64,000 bases of DNA from Planctomycetota bacterium (GTDB lineage Bacteria > Planctomycetota > UBA1135 > GCA-002686595). The DNA is taken from assembly GCA_020847695.1 (NCBI GenBank), contig JADLBP010000075.1, forward strand, positions 1 to 64,000, read 5' to 3'. Of this stretch, positions 3,592 to 64,000 are shown piece by piece; the first letter of the stretch is position 1; every line of letters starts with the position of its first letter. The translations under genes were made by a program, and so were the position numbers. A model generated the notes under the pieces. It did no database searches. It was not told the DNA's origin and saw only the letters and a program-made list of their open reading frames with translations.

Positions 3592-5715
3592 TCAGAGGAT
3601 GTCGAGGATGCCCGTGCCGGCGTCAGGCGACGTCAAGCTGGGCGTGTTCGCGCGGTAGTTGATGTCGACCGAGATCTTGGAGTTCCAAGGCAGCGGCTCC
3701 TTGTCCGCGACGATGCCGAGCGCTGCCGCGGCGAAGCCGCGAGCACCGTCGGTCTTCTCCTTGTCTTCGATGAACTTCAACAACGGCTCGACCGAGCGAG
3801 TGTCGCCGATGAAGCCGAGCGCGGAGGCGATCGCAGCCTGCGAGGACTGCGCGCCAGCGCGACCGAGCATGTCGATCAGCTCGGGCACGATCGTCTTGTC
3901 GCCGAGCAAGCCGAGACCGATTGCGGCGGACCGCAGCAGCTCGGGCTTGTACGTCGACTTGCGGATGACGTCCTGGATCGGCTTGATCGCATCCGAAGAG
4001 TTCATCAGGCCAAGACCCACGGCGCAGTACCCCTGCGCGTCGGCGTCCGACACCTTGTTGAACTTCTCCGTCAGCACCAGCTTGGAATCCAGGTCCTTCA
4101 TCAGACCGAGAGAGATCGCGTAGGCGCCGATCTCGACCGGGGAGCGAGCGTCGGCCAACGCATTCGACACGGCCTTCGCCATGTCGGGCGAGCACGCGGA
4201 CTTCATCTTGTTGTCCTCGAGACCGCGTTCCATGACGCCGATCGCGAGACCCGCCCAGCTCTTCTCCGCGGACTTGCCCTTGTTCAGCAACTCGGTGAGC
4301 GTCTTGCGGACGTCCTTGATGCCGGCGACCGGGTCGCCTTCGCCGGTTCCGGGCCGGCCGCCGATCTGACCGGCGGCGATCATCGAGAAGTACTGGGTCT
4401 GCTGGTCCTTGATGACCTCGCCCGCACCGAGCACCGCCTTGCGGATCTCGATGTCCCAAGCGTCGTTGTCACAGTCGCCGATCTGGCCGAGGGCGAGCAT
4501 GCAGGATTGCTTCTCCTCGTCCTTCGCCTTCGTGCCCTTGGCGACTTCGCTCGTCAGCAGCTTGACGACTTCGCCGCGGAGCTTCGACGTGCCGGGCACC
4601 GCCGGCTCGGCGGTCAAGAGCCGCGCCATCGCCGTCGGGGCGTGCGCTCGGTTCAGATACTCCTGGTTCTCGTCCTTGTAGTACTCGAGCAGGAAGCGCA
4701 GCTGGTCGTTGCGCGTCTTGATCTGAGTCTGACGACCGGCAGACAGCGCGTCGTCGTTCGCGTCGAACTCGAGCGGCACCAGGCCGATCGAGGTCAGGCA
4801 TGCGACCGGGATGTCGCGCGTGCCCATGCGCTTCGACTTGTCGAGCATGCCGACGAGCGCGCCGTTGATCTGTTGCTTGCGCGCAATGTCGGTCGAGCGG
4901 TAGCCGATCAGGCCGAGCCCGTAGCCCGCGAAGGCGCGCGTGCGCATCGGGACCTCGTTCTCGAACTGGACGTCCTTGTACTTGCCGCGGATGTCCGCGG
5001 CCTTGTCTTCGAGCAGCGCGATCAAGAGATCGACGATCTCCGGGCTGTCGTTCGCGAGGATGCCGAGCGCGACCGCGGCGGTCTCGCCGATCTCCGCCTC
5101 ACCCTTTGCGGCGAGGAACGGACGGATCTTCTCGAACATCTCGGACTTGCCGCTCTCGTTCTTCGCATCGCCGATCTTGGCGAGTGCGACGAGCGCACCG
5201 GTGATGATGTGGTTCGAGCGCTCGGTCTCCAGAGCCCGGATCATCGCGGGCACGACCTGGGTGCGGATGGTGGTCTCGCTCGGACGGAGCACTTGCTTCG
5301 AGCCACCGGACTTGCCGGTGCCCTTGAAGAACTCATCGCTGCCGGTCGTCACCGTGCCGGTGTTGATGTGCTCCTTCAGGTTCAGATAGGGCTCCTTGTT
5401 GAAGCCCCACCAGTAGTGCCACGTCGTCAGGTCCGGACCCGACGCCGCCGGGCCGGTCGTCGGTCGCGAGCCCGGTTGACCGGTGCCAGGCTGTCCGGGC
5501 GTCGACGGTCCGGGGGTGCCGGGTCCGGTCGGTCCCGGAGTCGACGGGCCTCCGGGTCCGGGGGTCGCGGGGCCACCGCCGCCGCCGCCACCACCGGGGC
5601 CGGGAGGCACCGTGTCGCCAGGGCCGCGGTACGTGCCACCGTGCCCGTACGAGAAGTCTTGCAGCGTGAGGCTAGCCAGTGCGATCAGCGCGCCGGCGGT
5701 CAGGATTTTCTTCAT
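3592..5715 (-). CDS. Secreted HEAT-repeat protein, paralog 2
   Basis: The start at 5715 is chosen because MKKILTAGALIALASL begins a clean signal peptide; upstream codons in frame encode arginine-rich junk. The 707-residue product has a Gly run and a collagen-like Pro-Gly-Thr linker (about residues 36-92), the signature WHYWWGFNKEPYLNL (about 99-113), a TGSDEFFKGT segment shared with paralog 3, then a long HEAT-type solenoid with repeated LGLMKDL/ALGFIGD units. The C-terminus is GTGILDIL. It is probably exported, with a flexible linker before a protein-binding solenoid; no partner can be named. It is the longest-linker member of three tandem genes in the same orientation, separated from its neighbours by more than 200 bases, so each may have its own promoter. 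Confidence 0.85.
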   Translation of the reverse strand: MKKILTAGALIALASLTLQDFSYGHGGTYRGPGDTVPPGPGGGGGGGGPATPGPGGPSTPGPTGPGTPGPSTPGQPGTGQPGSRPTTGPAASGPDLTTWHYWWGFNKEPYLNLKEHINTGTVTTGSDEFFKGTGKSGGSKQVLRPSETTIRTQVVPAMIRALETERSNHIITGALVALAKIGDAKNESGKSEMFEKIRPFLAAKGEAEIGETAAVALGILANDSPEIVDLLIALLEDKAADIRGKYKDVQFENEVPMRTRAFAGYGLGLIGYRSTDIARKQQINGALVGMLDKSKRMGTRDIPVACLTSIGLVPLEFDANDDALSAGRQTQIKTRNDQLRFLLEYYKDENQEYLNRAHAPTAMARLLTAEPAVPGTSKLRGEVVKLLTSEVAKGTKAKDEEKQSCMLALGQIGDCDNDAWDIEIRKAVLGAGEVIKDQQTQYFSMIAAGQIGGRPGTGEGDPVAGIKDVRKTLTELLNKGKSAEKSWAGLAIGVMERGLEDNKMKSACSPDMAKAVSNALADARSPVEIGAYAISLGLMKDLDSKLVLTEKFNKVSDADAQGYCAVGLGLMNSSDAIKPIQDVIRKSTYKPELLRSAAIGLGLLGDKTIVPELIDMLGRAGAQSSQAAIASALGFIGDTRSVEPLLKFIEDKEKTDGARGFAAAALGIVADKEPLPWNSKISVDINYRANTPSLTSPDAGTGILDIL

Positions 5716-9066: not shown

Positions 9067-11008
<1,942 letters not shown>

Positions 11009-16094: not shown

Positions 16095-17387
16095 ATGAAT
16101 CGCTTCTCCGTGCTCCTCGCGAGCGCTTCTCTCTGCTTGTTCGTCACGTCCGCGCACGCGGACACTCCTGCGCCCGGCTTCTCGCTCGCGGCGCAGCCGA
16201 GCCCGGTCTTCGGCTCGACCGCGTGCCTGCTCACCGGCGGCGACGTGGTCACGTTCGACGGTTCCTCCGTCGAGCGCTGGACCTCGACCGGCAACCATGT
16301 TTCGACGCTCGCCGTGCTGCCCGGCGTGACTTGGGCGAGCTTCGTCACCCCCACCGCGGATGGCTCGACCGTGTTCTTCGCGGAGAGCTCGAACCACGGG
16401 ATCTACCAGGCCCGCACCGATGGCTCGGGTTGGTCGCAACTGACGACGCTGCTGCTCGCGTACGACGCGGAAGTCGGCGCCGACGGCAGCCTCTACTTGA
16501 GCGCGATGCCGCTCGGCTTCGGCTACGACACCGACCTGGTTCGCCTCGAGACCGTCGCGCCGTTCTCGTGGACTTCGATCGGCGTGATCCCCGGCGCATC
16601 GGGACCGTTGACGTTCGACGGCGCCGGCAATCTGTACTACGCGACTCAGGACACCACGTTCCCCGCCGGCGCCGGCACGACCGATGTCCTCCGTTGGAGC
16701 GCGGCGCAAGTCGCACTCGGCGGTCTGACCGACGTCAACGCGACGCTGTTCGGCGCCGACTTCGACGGCGGCGCGGCGATGGACTTCGACGAGAAGGGCG
16801 GCGATCTGCTGCTCGCAGAAGCGAATTACGGATTGAACGAGTACCGCATCGTGCGCGTCTCGCAGGACAAGGCGCACTCGCCGGTGCTCGTCGAGGCCGG
16901 CCAGTGGATCTCGTCTCTCCAGGTGATCGAACAGGGAAGCGCGGCGACGCTCGACGCGTTCCAGCCGAGCACCGGCACCAAGCTCGTCTACGCGACGACC
17001 GACTTCGGCACGTTCGACGACTTCGTGACGCTGACGCCGAAGCGCCCGGTGCTCGCCGCGAGCGGCGCCGGCACGACCGGCCAGGGTCCGGTGACGTTGA
17101 CCGTCACCGGCGGCGTGCCGAACGGCACGCTGTTCCTCTTCTTCTGCCCGCAGTCCGCGTACTCGCCGACCGAGAGCGTCTACAACTTGCCGGCGTTCAA
17201 GTTCTTCACCGGCTTGAAGCCGTCGAACGTCCGGCGCATCCCGTTCCTGCTGCCGACCGATGCGAGCGGCACGGGCTCGTTCACGTTCTGGAATCCGGGC
17301 GACCTGCAGGGTCAGTACGCGTTCCAGGCGCTGGTCGGCGGCGTCACGGGCTCGTTCGTCGGAAGCTCGACGAGCACGCTGTTCTGA
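16095..17387 (+). CDS. Secreted beta-propeller-like protein under cobalamin riboswitch control
   Basis: 430 residues. The start at 16095 gives a clear signal peptide (MNRFSVLLASASLCLFVTSAHA, cleaved before DTP) and has AAAGGA upstream. Residues about 30-310 show repeated beta-strand units of propeller type (for example DGSGWSQLTTLLLAYDAEVGADGSLYLSA, GPLTFDGAGNLYYATQD, GAAMDFDEKGGDLLLAEANYG). The last 110 residues form a separate beta-rich domain ending SSTSTLF. No enzyme motif, lipobox or sorting motif is seen. Riboswitch control implies a role when B12 is scarce. In Bacteroides the surface propeller BtuG captures B12 next to BtuB, so a B12-capture role is attractive, but it is inferred from regulation and fold alone. 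No transporter gene is adjacent. Confidence 0.85.
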   Translation: MNRFSVLLASASLCLFVTSAHADTPAPGFSLAAQPSPVFGSTACLLTGGDVVTFDGSSVERWTSTGNHVSTLAVLPGVTWASFVTPTADGSTVFFAESSNHGIYQARTDGSGWSQLTTLLLAYDAEVGADGSLYLSAMPLGFGYDTDLVRLETVAPFSWTSIGVIPGASGPLTFDGAGNLYYATQDTTFPAGAGTTDVLRWSAAQVALGGLTDVNATLFGADFDGGAAMDFDEKGGDLLLAEANYGLNEYRIVRVSQDKAHSPVLVEAGQWISSLQVIEQGSAATLDAFQPSTGTKLVYATTDFGTFDDFVTLTPKRPVLAASGAGTTGQGPVTLTVTGGVPNGTLFLFFCPQSAYSPTESVYNLPAFKFFTGLKPSNVRRIPFLLPTDASGTGSFTFWNPGDLQGQYAFQALVGGVTGSFVGSSTSTLF

Positions 17388-59853: not shown

Positions 59854-59928
59854 TCCCCGATAGCTCAATGGTAGAGCATGCGGCTGTTAACCGCAGGGTT
59901 GTAGGTTCGAGCCCTACTCGGGGAGCCA
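59854..59928 (+). tRNA. tRNA-Asn, anticodon GTT
   Basis: 75 bases with encoded CCA. Acceptor UCCCCGA/UCGGGGA, anticodon loop CUGUUAA in a GCGG/CCGC arm, T-loop GUUCGAGCC, discriminator G. Confidence 0.96.
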
Positions 59929-59963
59929 TTTCTCGCTCGGCGCTGCGTGCGTGTTCCCCGAAG

Positions 59964-60166
59964 GCGCTGAACGGCACGCCGAGAGCGCGCGGCTCGAGGT
60001 AGCCCCAAGTCGCGCACCGGACGCGAGTTGCGCGCACCTTTTCGAGCGTCGCGTTCTCAGTTTGCACGAGGACGATCGGGCCCCCGATCCCGACCACGGC
60101 GAGGACGATCGGACCCCATGCTCGACCGTTCTGCAAACTCTCTGAGAGCGCCGAAAAATCTGTTAA
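59964..60166. repeat. Direct repeat, left copy (about 200 bp)
   Basis: From GCGCTGAACGG to CTGTTAA this segment matches 63310-63511 in the same orientation at roughly 84% identity by eye, including exact blocks such as GCGTTCTCAGTTTGCACGAG followed by GACGATCGGGC. It starts 35 bases after tRNA-Asn. On the minus strand a frame reads LAVVGIGGPIVLVQTENA in one copy and LAVVGIGCPIVLVQTENA in the other, but differences are not concentrated at third positions, so coding is doubtful. Confidence 0.85.
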
Positions 60167-60194
60167 GCGCACCCAGGCGAAGCCCCTCGAACTC

Positions 60195-60478
60195 GCGCCA
60201 GAATCCGGCCGCGTGACGCGTCCGTTCGCTTCCGGTCAGCGCCACGCGCCCCCCCGCTCCCGTCGTGTAGCGCGGCCGGCCGTCGGCCTTCGTCCCGTCG
60301 CGCGATCGAACGTCGGAACGCAGCGAGGGCGACGTTGCGTCCGGCCGTGCACTGCGCGCAGCGCGTCTGCCTCCGGCGCGGCCTCACGCCGACGACCGGC
60401 ACACCGTCCTCGAAGTGCACGCCCGTCGACGATCAGACCGCTGACATCGAAGAGGCGATCCAATAACGTGGAGACTCG
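60195..60478 (-). pseudogene. Decayed ISL3-family transposase N-terminus
   Basis: Reading down from 60478 on the minus strand: LLDRLFDVSGLIVDG, then, after a one-base frame change, VHFEDGVPVVGVRPRRRQ with TRCAQC. Further on, in another frame, comes GRPRYTTGAGGR. This follows the start of ISL3-type transposases, which have a leucine-rich helix, a 'V.VRPRRRR..C..C' zinc motif and then 'GR.PRYD.G.GR'. Only the first 90 or so residues exist and at least two frameshifts break them. No terminal inverted repeats were found. Confidence 0.5.
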
Positions 60479-60669
60479 CAGGGGATCCTGCCTGAGCGGT
60501 GCATTGCGGTGAATTTCGAGTCCACCACGAAACCCGGGCGCGTGTCCCCTCCCCGCGCGCGCCAGCCACGATGCCAATCCGCTTCGTTGTTGCCCTTGAT
60601 CCTCTGCCCTCCGTGCTCTCGAATCCCGTCTTTCAACCAGTCGGCTATCCACACAACTTGGAGGAGAGC

Positions 60670-60816
60670 ATGAAGTCCCCGCCCGGCGTTGACTCCAAAG
60701 ACCTAGAGCCGGCCTCGCATGCGCTGTGGGGCGACGTGCCTCAGGCCCACTCGCACGTCGGGCTCGTCCACGCGGCGTTCACCGCGTGTCTTCGCTGGCC
60801 CGAGTATGGCTCGTGA
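60670..60816 (+). CDS. 48-residue small protein coupled to nhaA
   Basis: ATG with a very strong ribosome site (GGAGGAG). Its TGA overlaps the nhaA GTG as GTGA. Soluble, with a few His and Pro residues (AHSHVGLVHAAF) and no recognised family. It may be a leader that sets translation of nhaA or a remnant of a longer gene. Confidence 0.45.
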   Translation: MKSPPGVDSKDLEPASHALWGDVPQAHSHVGLVHAAFTACLRWPEYGS

Positions 60817-62231
60817 GTAACAGTTCCGAGAAGCGCTCTCCGTTGCCGTCGTCGCCGCCGGAAGCCTGGGAGCCGCTGCTGCGCGTCGCACGCCTCGCCG
60901 GACGCCCGCTCGAGCGATTCCTCCGCATCGAGGCAGCCAGCGGCATCTTGCTGCTCGCCGCGGCGGCCGTCGCGCTCGCCTGGGCGAACTCTCCGTGGGC
61001 CGAGATCTACGTGCGCCTCTGGCAGACGCCCCTCGGCATCCGCATCGGCACGCACACCTTCGAGCGATCCCTGGAGTGGGTCGTCAACGATGGCCTGATG
61101 GTGATCTTCTTCTTCGTCGTGGGGATGGAAATCCGTCGCGAGATCCACCACGGTGAGTTGTCCGACTGGCGCAGGGCTGCGCTTCCCGCCGCGGCGGCAT
61201 TGGGCGGCATGGCGGCCCCCGCGGCCCTCTACCTCGTCATCGCAGGTGATCCGGCGACCCGCTCGGGATGGGGCGTCCCCATGGCGACGGACATCGCCTT
61301 CGCGGTCGGCATCCTCACGCTGCTCGGCAAGCGTGTGCCCGCCGCCTTGCGGGTACTCCTGCTTGCGATCGCGGTCATCGATGATCTCGGGGCCATCGTC
61401 GTCATCGCGTTGTTCTACTCGTCGGGCATCGCGCTCTCCGGGCTGCTCGTGGCGGCGCTCGGGTTCGGCGGCGTGTTCGCGATGCAGCGCCTCGGCGTGC
61501 GGGCGAAGCTGGCCTACGTCGTACCCGCGCTCATCGCATGGGCGGGCATCTACGCAGCCGGGATTCATCCCACGATCGCCGGCGTGATCGTCGGGTTGGT
61601 CACGCCCGTCAGAGCGTGGCTCGGGCCGGACGGGTTCGTCGTCGGAGTTCGCACGGAACTCGAGCACATGGTGCAGGCCACGCCGAGTGCTCTCTCCTCG
61701 CACATGTTGGCCGGGACCCTGCGCAAGGTCGACGTCGCACGGCGCGAGGCCATGTCGCCGGCCGAGAGTTTGATCGAGACGCTCCATCCGTGGGTCGCAT
61801 TCGGCATCATGCCGGTGTTCGCGCTCGCCAACGCGGGCGTCGCAGTCTCTGGCGTGTCGCTCGACGCGACGTCCTGGAGCGTCGTGACCGCGGTTTCGGT
61901 TGGGCTCCTCGTAGGCAAGCTGCTCGGCGTGCTCGTAGCGAGTTGGCTGACGTTGCGACTGCGGATCGGAATGCTCCCGGTGGGCGTGACGTTCCGGCAC
62001 CTCGTCGTGCTCGGCGTCGTCGCCGGCGTGGGATTCACGATGTCGCTGTTCATCGCCCAGCTTGCCTTCACGGACGCAAAGCTCCTGGCCGCCGCGAAGC
62101 TCGGCGTGCTCGCCGCGAGCGGAGGCGCGGCGGTCCTCGGGCTCGTTCTCGGTCGGCTGCTGCTTGCTCCCGTCCCTGCCGCCGGGGTCGCGCCGACGGC
62201 TGACGAGGCAGAAAGCTCGACGGTGGCTTGA
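60813..62231 (+). CDS. nhaA: Na+/H+ antiporter NhaA
   Basis: 472 residues from GTG 60813; longer in-frame starts upstream have no ribosome site and poor composition. Twelve membrane helices. Active-site aspartates D160 (ATDIAFAVG) and the D190-D191 pair (IAVIDDLGAIVVIALFYSSG); NDGLMVIFFFVVGMEIRRE and MEIRREIHHGEL match the family exactly. A 35-residue N-terminal and a Ser-rich C-terminal tail extend the E. coli length (388). It expels Na+ in exchange for protons. It forms an ion-transport pair with the next gene. Confidence 0.95.
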   Translation: MSNSSEKRSPLPSSPPEAWEPLLRVARLAGRPLERFLRIEAASGILLLAAAAVALAWANSPWAEIYVRLWQTPLGIRIGTHTFERSLEWVVNDGLMVIFFFVVGMEIRREIHHGELSDWRRAALPAAAALGGMAAPAALYLVIAGDPATRSGWGVPMATDIAFAVGILTLLGKRVPAALRVLLLAIAVIDDLGAIVVIALFYSSGIALSGLLVAALGFGGVFAMQRLGVRAKLAYVVPALIAWAGIYAAGIHPTIAGVIVGLVTPVRAWLGPDGFVVGVRTELEHMVQATPSALSSHMLAGTLRKVDVARREAMSPAESLIETLHPWVAFGIMPVFALANAGVAVSGVSLDATSWSVVTAVSVGLLVGKLLGVLVASWLTLRLRIGMLPVGVTFRHLVVLGVVAGVGFTMSLFIAQLAFTDAKLLAAAKLGVLAASGGAAVLGLVLGRLLLAPVPAAGVAPTADEAESSTVA

Positions 62232-62268
62232 CGGTGCCGCTGCGCATCGACGCTGCGCCGGAGGGCAC

Positions 62269-63243
62269 TTGAACGACTGGATCCAGCTCGTCGGAGGTGG
62301 GCTGCTCCTCTACTTCGGCGCCGAGTGGTTCGTGGGCGGCGCGTCTGCTCTCGCGTTGGCCCTGCGCGTGCCGCAGATCCTCGTGGGCCTCACCGTCGTC
62401 GCGTACGGAACCTCGGCACCAGAGATCATCGTCGGCGTTCAGGCCGCGAGCGCTGGCCACGGTGACGTGGCGCTCGGAAACGTCATCGGCTCGAACATCT
62501 CGAACATCGGGCTGATCCTTGGCATCGCGGCGCTCATCAGGCCGGCTCGCGTCGATGGGGCCTTGCGCCGACGTGAACTACCCGTGCTCGTGGTGAGCAC
62601 AGCGGTCGTGCCGCTGCTGCTCCTCGACGGCGTCCTGAGCCGCTGGGAAGCGGGAGGGCTCGTCGTCGTAGCGATCGGGTACACCGGCTGGATGATCCGC
62701 GCAGCGCACAGCGCATCCTCGGTTGCCACGGCAAGGGTCGACGCAACGAGGGCTGGAGAAGCCGCAGATGCAGCCGGTGCCCCGAAGACGGCGGGCGTAC
62801 CGCGCGCGGCGCTGACGGCCGCCGCCGGTCTTGCAGTGCTGCTCGTCGGCGGTCATATCTTCGTCAACGGCTCGGTCTCCGTCGCGCACGCCCTCGGGAT
62901 GAGCGATCGACTCGTGGGGCTCACCATCGTCGCGGTGGGGACCTCGTTGCCCGAGCTCGTCACGAGCGTCATCGCGGCGCGCCGCGGGCACTCGGACCTG
63001 GCGGTCGGCAACGTCGTGGGCTCCAACATCTTCAACACACTCCTCTGCCTCGGCGCCGCGGGAATCGCAGGATCGGTGGGTGCTCCTCTTCAAACGCTCG
63101 GCGTCGAGCTCGTCGCGCTCGTCGTCATGACTGGCGTCGCGGCCGCGTTCATCCGAAGCGAGCGCACCATCTCTCGGCTCGAAGGTGGGTTAGCCGTCGC
63201 GCTCTACGCGGTGTTCACCGCGCTCACGGTGGCGAGGGGGTGA
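62269..63243 (+). CDS. Na+/Ca2+ antiporter, CaCA family (YrbG-like)
   Basis: 324 residues from a TTG with GGAGG 6 bases upstream. Two homologous halves of five helices each, with the alpha-repeats GTSAPEIIVG (47-56) plus GNVIGSNISNI (70-80), and GTSLPELVTS plus GNVVGSNIFN in the second half. The linker (about 155-180) is Ala/Thr-rich. It moves Ca2+ against Na+. Starts 37 bases after nhaA, probably one operon. Confidence 0.93.
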   Translation: MNDWIQLVGGGLLLYFGAEWFVGGASALALALRVPQILVGLTVVAYGTSAPEIIVGVQAASAGHGDVALGNVIGSNISNIGLILGIAALIRPARVDGALRRRELPVLVVSTAVVPLLLLDGVLSRWEAGGLVVVAIGYTGWMIRAAHSASSVATARVDATRAGEAADAAGAPKTAGVPRAALTAAAGLAVLLVGGHIFVNGSVSVAHALGMSDRLVGLTIVAVGTSLPELVTSVIAARRGHSDLAVGNVVGSNIFNTLLCLGAAGIAGSVGAPLQTLGVELVALVVMTGVAAAFIRSERTISRLEGGLAVALYAVFTALTVARG

Positions 63244-63309
63244 GCCGGGCGTGCGTCGCGAGTTTGACGAGCCGCGCTTCTTGTGGCCCTTCGTGCTCAC
63301 AGGCCGAGC

Positions 63310-63511
63310 GTGCTGAACGGCGCGCCGAGAGCACGCTGAGCGAGGCAGCCCCAAGTCGCGCGCCCGACGCGAGTTGCGCGCACCTTTTCGGCCGCCGCGT
63401 TCTCAGTTTGCACGAGGACGATCGGGCACCCGATCCCGACCACGGCGAGGATGATCGGACCCCTTTCCCGACCGCTCTGCAAACTCTCTGAGAGCACCGA
63501 AAAGCTATTAA
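63310..63511. repeat. Direct repeat, right copy (about 200 bp)
   Basis: Right-hand copy of 59964-60166. Together they bound the segment with the ISL3 remnant, the 48-residue ORF, nhaA and the CaCA gene. Confidence 0.85.
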
Positions 63512-63728
63512 CCACTCGCGGAGCGGTCAGCGCCGCAGCCGACCTCCACGACTCCCAGTTATCTTCGATCCTTGGCCACCATCGTGATCCCGCCGCTCGT
63601 GGATCTCGACCAAGCGCGCCAACCAGATTGACCCTTCGACCAACTGTGCCGCAACGGTCCATCGCCCGCGCGCGCGGTCAGCCGACGGAATCTCGTTGCG
63701 TTTGGCTTTCCCGCGCCAAGTCGGAGCG
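63512..63728. other. Intergenic region before the last gene
   Basis: No supported gene, hairpin or promoter beyond a possible ribosome site (GGAGCG) directly before the ATG at 63729. Confidence 0.5.
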
Positions 63729-64000
63729 ATGATGAGGGCGCTTTCACTCGCGTTGGCTGTGCTCCCAGCGCAAGACCCGGAGCGACCGGACACCTTCGGT
63801 GCGGCATTCGTAAGCCTCGCGGACGTCGACGGCGACGGAACGCCGGACCACGCGATCACATGTACGCAACCGGTGCTTGCCACGTGGGCGTTCTCCGGCG
63901 CTACCGGCCAGGTTCTGTGGAGAGCCGACGGCAGCGTGGTCGTGTCGAGACTCGGTGAGCGACTCCTCGCGCGGGCCGAGAACTCGATCCGGTTGCTTTC
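63729..64000 (+). CDS. Exported FG-GAP/VCBS-type repeat protein (3' end missing)
   Basis: Open to the window end; 90 codons visible. Two ATGs in tandem, then a short signal-like start (RALSLALAVLPAQ). LADVDGDGTPDHAI carries the DxDGDGxxD calcium loop of FG-GAP blades, followed by WAFSGATGQVLW, a typical second strand pair of such propellers. Planctomycetes encode many such secreted proteins. Size and end unknown. Confidence 0.75.
   Translation, partial: MMRALSLALAVLPAQDPERPDTFGAAFVSLADVDGDGTPDHAITCTQPVLATWAFSGATGQVLWRADGSVVVSRLGERLLARAENSIRLL

Follow-up and report, generated by a model that had tools for sequence, protein, structure and literature searches.

How did two antiporter genes, nhaA and a member of the CaCA (Na+/Ca2+ exchanger) family, come to lie between direct repeats immediately behind a tRNA-Asn gene in a Planctomycetota bacterium? 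We analysed positions 1-64,000 (the whole stretch of 64,000 nucleotides, here called the window) of contig JADLBP010000075.1 from assembly GCA_020847695.1 (5.59 Mb in 390 contigs, 89.9% complete). The genome is referred to as G000 and the contig as C76. We hold with good confidence that islands were integrated one behind the other at the tRNA-Asn 3' end by a large serine recombinase (LSR), and that the tRNA-proximal layer of this tandem stack has nhaA and the CaCA gene as its cargo.

The window contains a pair of direct repeats of 200 nt (59958-60157 and 63304-63503) with an identity of 90%, far beyond chance. A profile built from nine congeneric copies showed that the repeat unit, R, is ~248 bp long and starts with GAGCCAT, that is, with the final six bases of the tRNA plus one. 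The original prediction had described direct repeats of 200 bp, the left one 35 bases past tRNA-Asn; the repeats are real, but they are longer and the left one begins inside the tRNA gene. The elements concerned are the following.

59854..59928, plus strand: tRNA-Asn (GTT), the presumed attB/attL; each R opens with a copy of its 3' end.
59923..60170, plus strand: R1, which begins within the last six bases of tRNA-Asn; presumed left end of the tRNA-proximal layer.
63269..63516, plus strand: R2, the second repeat; its att arm (first ~45 bp) is decayed and from the tRNA end only GAGCC is kept.
Contig 66783-68733, outside the window: recombinase partner, truncated recombinase (minus strand) and R3 (68492-68733).

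R3 again begins with the tRNA 3' end and adjoins the truncated LSR gene. Its start reads GAGCCATTTCTC, the same as after the tRNA, thus a repeat of the tRNA 3' end is present at the far boundary. A search of the whole assembly with the 200-nt repeat returned exactly three matches, all on this contig, the third at 68527-68718. R is therefore confined to this locus, and in the genus it is tied to insertions.

Several other identities of R were rejected. It shows no coding signal, as none of the frames is open across all nine copies. Nor does it show a signal of RNA structure (no Rfam match; alifold covariation term unfavourable, +1.62; any double change in 12 of 60 pairs). With three copies in the genome, and matches outside the genus limited to short stretches of 26-45 nt, it does not qualify as a dispersed repeat. 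As a mere guess, the ~200 bases that are conserved past the att arm may contain sites for the recombinase or for replication.

The search for R covered 41 genomes. Long matches were obtained in the four genomes of the genus only (G000-G003), while the short ones came from four others. R stands after tRNA-Asn in all four congeneric genomes. Further copies start with the tRNA 3' end and have no tRNA on the fetched stretch: two full ones on G001 C26 and one on G003 C2. R3 of G000 is of the same kind. One of these copies, G001-C26a, keeps CCCTACTCGGGGAGCCAT of the tRNA end, and C26 additionally holds one partial R without it. Two genomes have R on two contigs (G001 C26 and C66, G003 C41 and C2); we rejected the idea that such clusters are parts joined by contig overlaps, as the contig ends do not overlap. 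Past the right end in G002, the sequence has counterparts, in the same order, at the outer ends of G001 C66 and C26 (76% over 832 nt, 81% over 146 nt). This synteny with G002 suggests a position of C26 downstream of C66 and a stack in G001 as well.

An LSR gene together with a small partner gene was found in all six R clusters (G000 C76, G001 C66, G001 C26, G002 C85, G003 C41 and G003 C2). In G000 the LSR adjoins R3 on the minus strand and is followed by the small protein gene. Both the G000 LSR and the complete copy of G001 C66 contain PF00239 (Resolvase), PF07508 (Recombinase) and PF13408 (zinc ribbon), in this order. The LSR sequence matches structures of the TP901-1 (E 1.2e-21), A118 and phiC31 integrases, with which it shares this set of domains; unlike theirs, its presumed target adjoins tRNA genes. 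The G000 copy is cut at the N-terminus. Its coding sequence runs into R3 at the motif GWVALPERY, and ~40 residues are gone, the catalytic serine region included, so this copy has probably lost its function. G001 C66 and G003 C41 have a frame that is open from the N-terminal region onwards, and both contain YTRKST, which we take to hold the catalytic serine. The N-terminal part is in another frame in G002 and G001 C26, and the G003 C2 copy is partial. The segment between R1 and R2 has no recombinase of its own and the LSR between R2 and R3 lacks its N-terminus, so neither layer contains an intact integrase. The partner had no Pfam match; in our reading of its sequence it is helix-turn-helix-like. 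Among 61 family genomes drawn, the LSR was detected at E<=1e-60 in four (G000, G001, G002 and G051; G003 was not part of the draw).

As a separate observation, at C76:68480-68500 the LSR gene is fused to the tRNA-end/R3 junction at a place where the coding sequence resembles the tRNA end. This could be the result of recombination at a pseudo-site in the recombinase's own gene or of a microhomology deletion.

The opposite end of the islands was also recognisable in the genus. A right-end motif (GAGTTTGCAAGAGCACCC and variants) lies upstream of the tRNA-end copies in G001 C26, G003 C2 and G002 (C85:123295), with a fixed spacing of 28 bp to the core at all three sites. A matrix made from these sites, which themselves score 54-57 by construction, gave 37.6 for a fourth site (G001 C26, L016(-)17031), compared with a best score of 13.5 in 20 shuffles of one 19.9-kb stretch. 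In G002 the motif bounds an island of ~14.4 kb that starts at tRNA-Asn. The right end of the G001 C66 island was searched for and not found. On the minus strand of L016 (G001:C26), two right ends, at 17031 and 16815, are only 216 bp apart, as if the layer between them has been lost.

The mechanism that we propose is as follows. Each island would arrive as a circle, which the LSR would recombine with the 3' end of tRNA-Asn. The left end of the incoming island would restore the end of the tRNA and bring R, and the old tRNA 3' end with the R of the earlier island would be pushed downstream. Since each insertion would bring its own R and displace the earlier one, R1, R2 and R3 may be read as successive left ends. 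The R1-R2 layer, having no recombinase, may owe its integration to one acting in trans or may once have had a module that it lost, and the R2-R3 layer would be the next one, bearing the N-terminally cut LSR.

Alternatively, R1, R2 and R3 may belong to one island that ends at R3, with R2 as an internal relic or duplication and nhaA-CaCA as part of this single LSR island. We regard this as possible, though not probable. There is a single recombinase between R1 and R3, the arms of these two repeats are of the same type, and the att arm of R2 is decayed and not preceded by the right-end motif, all of which would agree with one island. Against this, R2 retains the full length of R with an identity of 79-90%, and tandem R copies with cargo between them are also present in G001 C26.

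The second alternative is that R is ordinary chromosomal sequence 3' of tRNA-Asn which was duplicated locally by homologous recombination, with the LSR as a bystander. The constant position of R in the four genomes and the likeness of copies within G000 and within G003 would fit such a duplication, but the copies start exactly at the tRNA 3' end, the LSR module accompanies every R cluster, and the similarity of R runs opposite to the relationship of the species. For gluQ, a gene on the upstream side of the tRNA, G000 has an identity of 90.5% with its sister G002 and of 77.6% with G001, whereas R1 is closer to G001-C26a (85.6%) than to G002 (77.1%). We consider local duplication quite improbable. 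The LSR-partner module behaves in the same way (87.7% identity between G000 and G001 C26, 76.5% between G000 and G002), and because this similarity contradicts the species relationship shown by gluQ, the sequences indicate that the module has moved horizontally. When the G000 array was compared with those of G001-G003 (blastn, E<=1e-6), the only stretches in common were the ~1.65-kb LSR-partner module and R, the latter with up to ~165 bp of following sequence. With the 5181 bases after R3 as a query, G002 had no match, and G001 and G003 had only short ones (43-68 nt).

To see the recombinase in a wider context, genome contigs were scanned with an LSR alignment, and the best 80 of 385 relatives were analysed (three of these 80 loci come from G001 and G002). 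ARAGORN placed a tRNA downstream of the LSR in 34 of these 80 loci and upstream in 2 (scan extent on the two sides 527 kb and 560 kb), and the nearest downstream tRNA was convergent in 34 of 34. After clustering of the same loci at 60% identity the numbers were 18/38 and 2/38, respectively. In several relatives the matched LSR end lies about 1 kb or less from the tRNA, and the convergent placement extends across at least eight phyla. The tRNA isotypes cluster on the LSR tree (26 changes compared with 36.5 in shuffles; 0 of 200 shuffles as low), with Asn in Planctomycetota and Omnitrophota and Ser, Phe, Gln and others elsewhere. A relative of the partner was detected near the LSR end in 66 of the 77 loci of this set from outside the genus (three rounds of profile search, E<1e-3, open frames); approximately a quarter are represented by a fragment only, so the count rests on E-values. 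One locus of Omnitrophota, L054, contains a second copy of the tRNA-Asn 3' end (138 bp at 95.7%; repeats at about 5262-5400 and 9818-9955, reverse complement), and the far end of its repeat again resembles the tRNA 3' end, so the same architecture occurs in another phylum. We lean towards the view that this LSR lineage, present in at least eight phyla, has specialised in tRNA genes, with repeated switches of isotype, mostly accompanied by a partner that possibly sets target or direction, and with stacks at tRNA-Asn in planctomycetes.

It is very improbable that a tyrosine integrase inserted the islands and the LSR is mere cargo: one tyrosine integrase does occur in the G001 C66 array, and tRNA targets are classically those of tyrosine integrases (PMC10654092, PMC4701971), but the other PF00589 matches in G000-G003 are all on contigs without an R cluster, and the LSR relatives keep their convergent position next to tRNA genes in one phylum after another.

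Several observations weigh against the stack of islands. All four genomes of the genus have R after tRNA-Asn, and an empty site was seen in none of them; they are 85-91% complete, so absences are provisional. The right-end motif was not seen at R2 or R3 of G000. R2 has no recognisable right end and lacks most of the core, and for this reason we only infer R1-R2 as a layer of its own. R3 is preceded by LSR coding sequence in place of the right-end motif. Among the 34 tRNA-linked loci, a convincing second tRNA 3' end was found only in L054, besides the G002 locus of the genus itself; L042 (the right end of G002), L061 and L104 (probably a neighbouring tRNA) gave weaker or other repeats, and in most of the 34 there was no second tRNA end above the between-locus control within the sequence around each locus. 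Finally, the tyrosine integrase of the G001 C66 array (C66:19606-20097) means that part of that array may be due to another integrator.

Islands associated with tRNA genes are usually tyrosine-integrase systems, and such genes are usually regarded as tyrosine-integrase territory; here an LSR takes this place. Tandem accretion of integrative and conjugative elements (ICEs) and genomic islands (GIs) was reportedly described by Pavlovic et al. in 2004, and Klebsiella is said to carry islands at asparagine tDNA. Our locus resembles these in its tRNA-Asn hotspot, its stacked islands and its layers without an integrase of their own. The closest published analogue is the set of Dehalococcoides ssrA islands with the serine recombinase DsiB. 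According to PMC3146451, these islands lie in tandem 3' of a structural RNA gene, are bounded by direct repeats of its 3' end, carry variable cargo and have a CcrB-related serine recombinase as putative integrase; 15 of them have no integration module, and accretion was proposed to mobilise them. All of these features, module-free layers included, have their counterparts here. The two systems differ in target (tmRNA, ssrA, there and tRNA-Asn here), in the direct repeat (20 bp and ~248 bp, respectively) and in the module, which in Dehalococcoides comprises six genes with a second, small serine recombinase and here an LSR with one small helix-turn-helix-like partner.

A large survey of LSR targets groups its sites by protein-coding target genes, and the term 'tRNA' is absent from its main text (PMC10083194). 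In mycobacteria, PMC10654092 places tyrosine integrases at tRNA sites and a serine-integrase satellite elsewhere. Our searches of open-licence PMC papers turned up no account of a serine recombinase lineage dedicated to tRNA genes; island databases such as TIGER/Islander, named in PMC12884075, may already hold such sites. A lineage of serine recombinases able to read tRNA ends would, if real, amount to a natural experiment in target change, and it could supply integrases for near-universal landing sites. For planctomycetes, it would provide a concrete, testable integration hotspot and account for the arrival of genes such as nhaA and CaCA.

The remaining features between and after the repeats are listed below.

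60176..60334, plus strand: decayed stretch; what follows R in the sister species G002 is 71% identical to it (over 164 nt).
60693..60777, plus strand: fragment similar (73%) to the C-terminal part of a GH15 gene that lies on another contig of the genome (G000:C277).
60813..62231, plus strand: nhaA, intact Na+/H+ antiporter gene (PF06965, E 3.5e-134); GTG start likely.
62269..63243, plus strand: intact CaCA antiporter gene (PF01699, E 2.2e-61, two stretches); TTG start likely.
63696..64000, on to contig 64931, plus strand: start of an FG-GAP repeat protein gene of the R2-R3 layer; the frame continues past the window.

The two antiporter genes are intact and, as originally predicted, enclosed by direct repeats. 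The ISL3-type transposase remnant which had been placed beside them was rejected, since four minus-strand frames of 60166-60654 gave no ISL3 Pfam match at E<=10. The stretch from R1 to nhaA is decayed. A short piece of it at window 60618-60685 (~50-68 nt, 78-81%) recurs on three G002 contigs. Composition was set aside as evidence of acquisition: the G+C of the segment (0.66-0.70) overlaps with that upstream (0.64-0.73), and the codon score per codon, lower in nhaA and CaCA than in the upstream genes, was given no weight because both encode membrane proteins.

We found matches to nhaA (E<=1e-20) in 20 of the 61 family genomes, the best being 68% in G009, and none in G001-G003 at E<=1e-3. The CaCA gene had matches in 45 of the 61, with none in G001 and G002 at E<=1e-20 and none in G003 at E<=1e-3. 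The proposal of a segment acquired at a tRNA integration site within direct repeats agrees with this absence from three congeners and with the different cargo of their arrays. The picture of a single small salt cassette did not hold: the R-bounded region extends past the window to R3 and the LSR, and R marks the end of islands with unrelated cargo. As regards the gene order in distant relatives, whose conservation would have spoken against acquisition, nhaA and CaCA are adjacent but convergent in G046, one distant genome of the draw, and in G009, which has the best nhaA match, they are on separate contigs.

Cargo of the other arrays includes TPR-CHAT proteins, a subunit of a type I restriction system, an MFS transporter, a RhuM/Fic protein and, next to a TetR regulator, a protein in which Pfam recognises a Beta-lactamase domain. 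In G003:C2 (L020:2361-9813), two large TPR-CHAT proteins are adjacent as island cargo and are possibly a defence or signalling pair. A primase-polymerase with a D5 domain is encoded at G001:C66:21605-24039 (L017:1606-4040), together with the tyrosine integrase and a small upstream ORF which had no Pfam match and looks like an AlpA-type regulator. Because of the nearby tyrosine integrase, we did not assign the primase-polymerase to the LSR island; the group may be a satellite-like element of its own that shares the hotspot.

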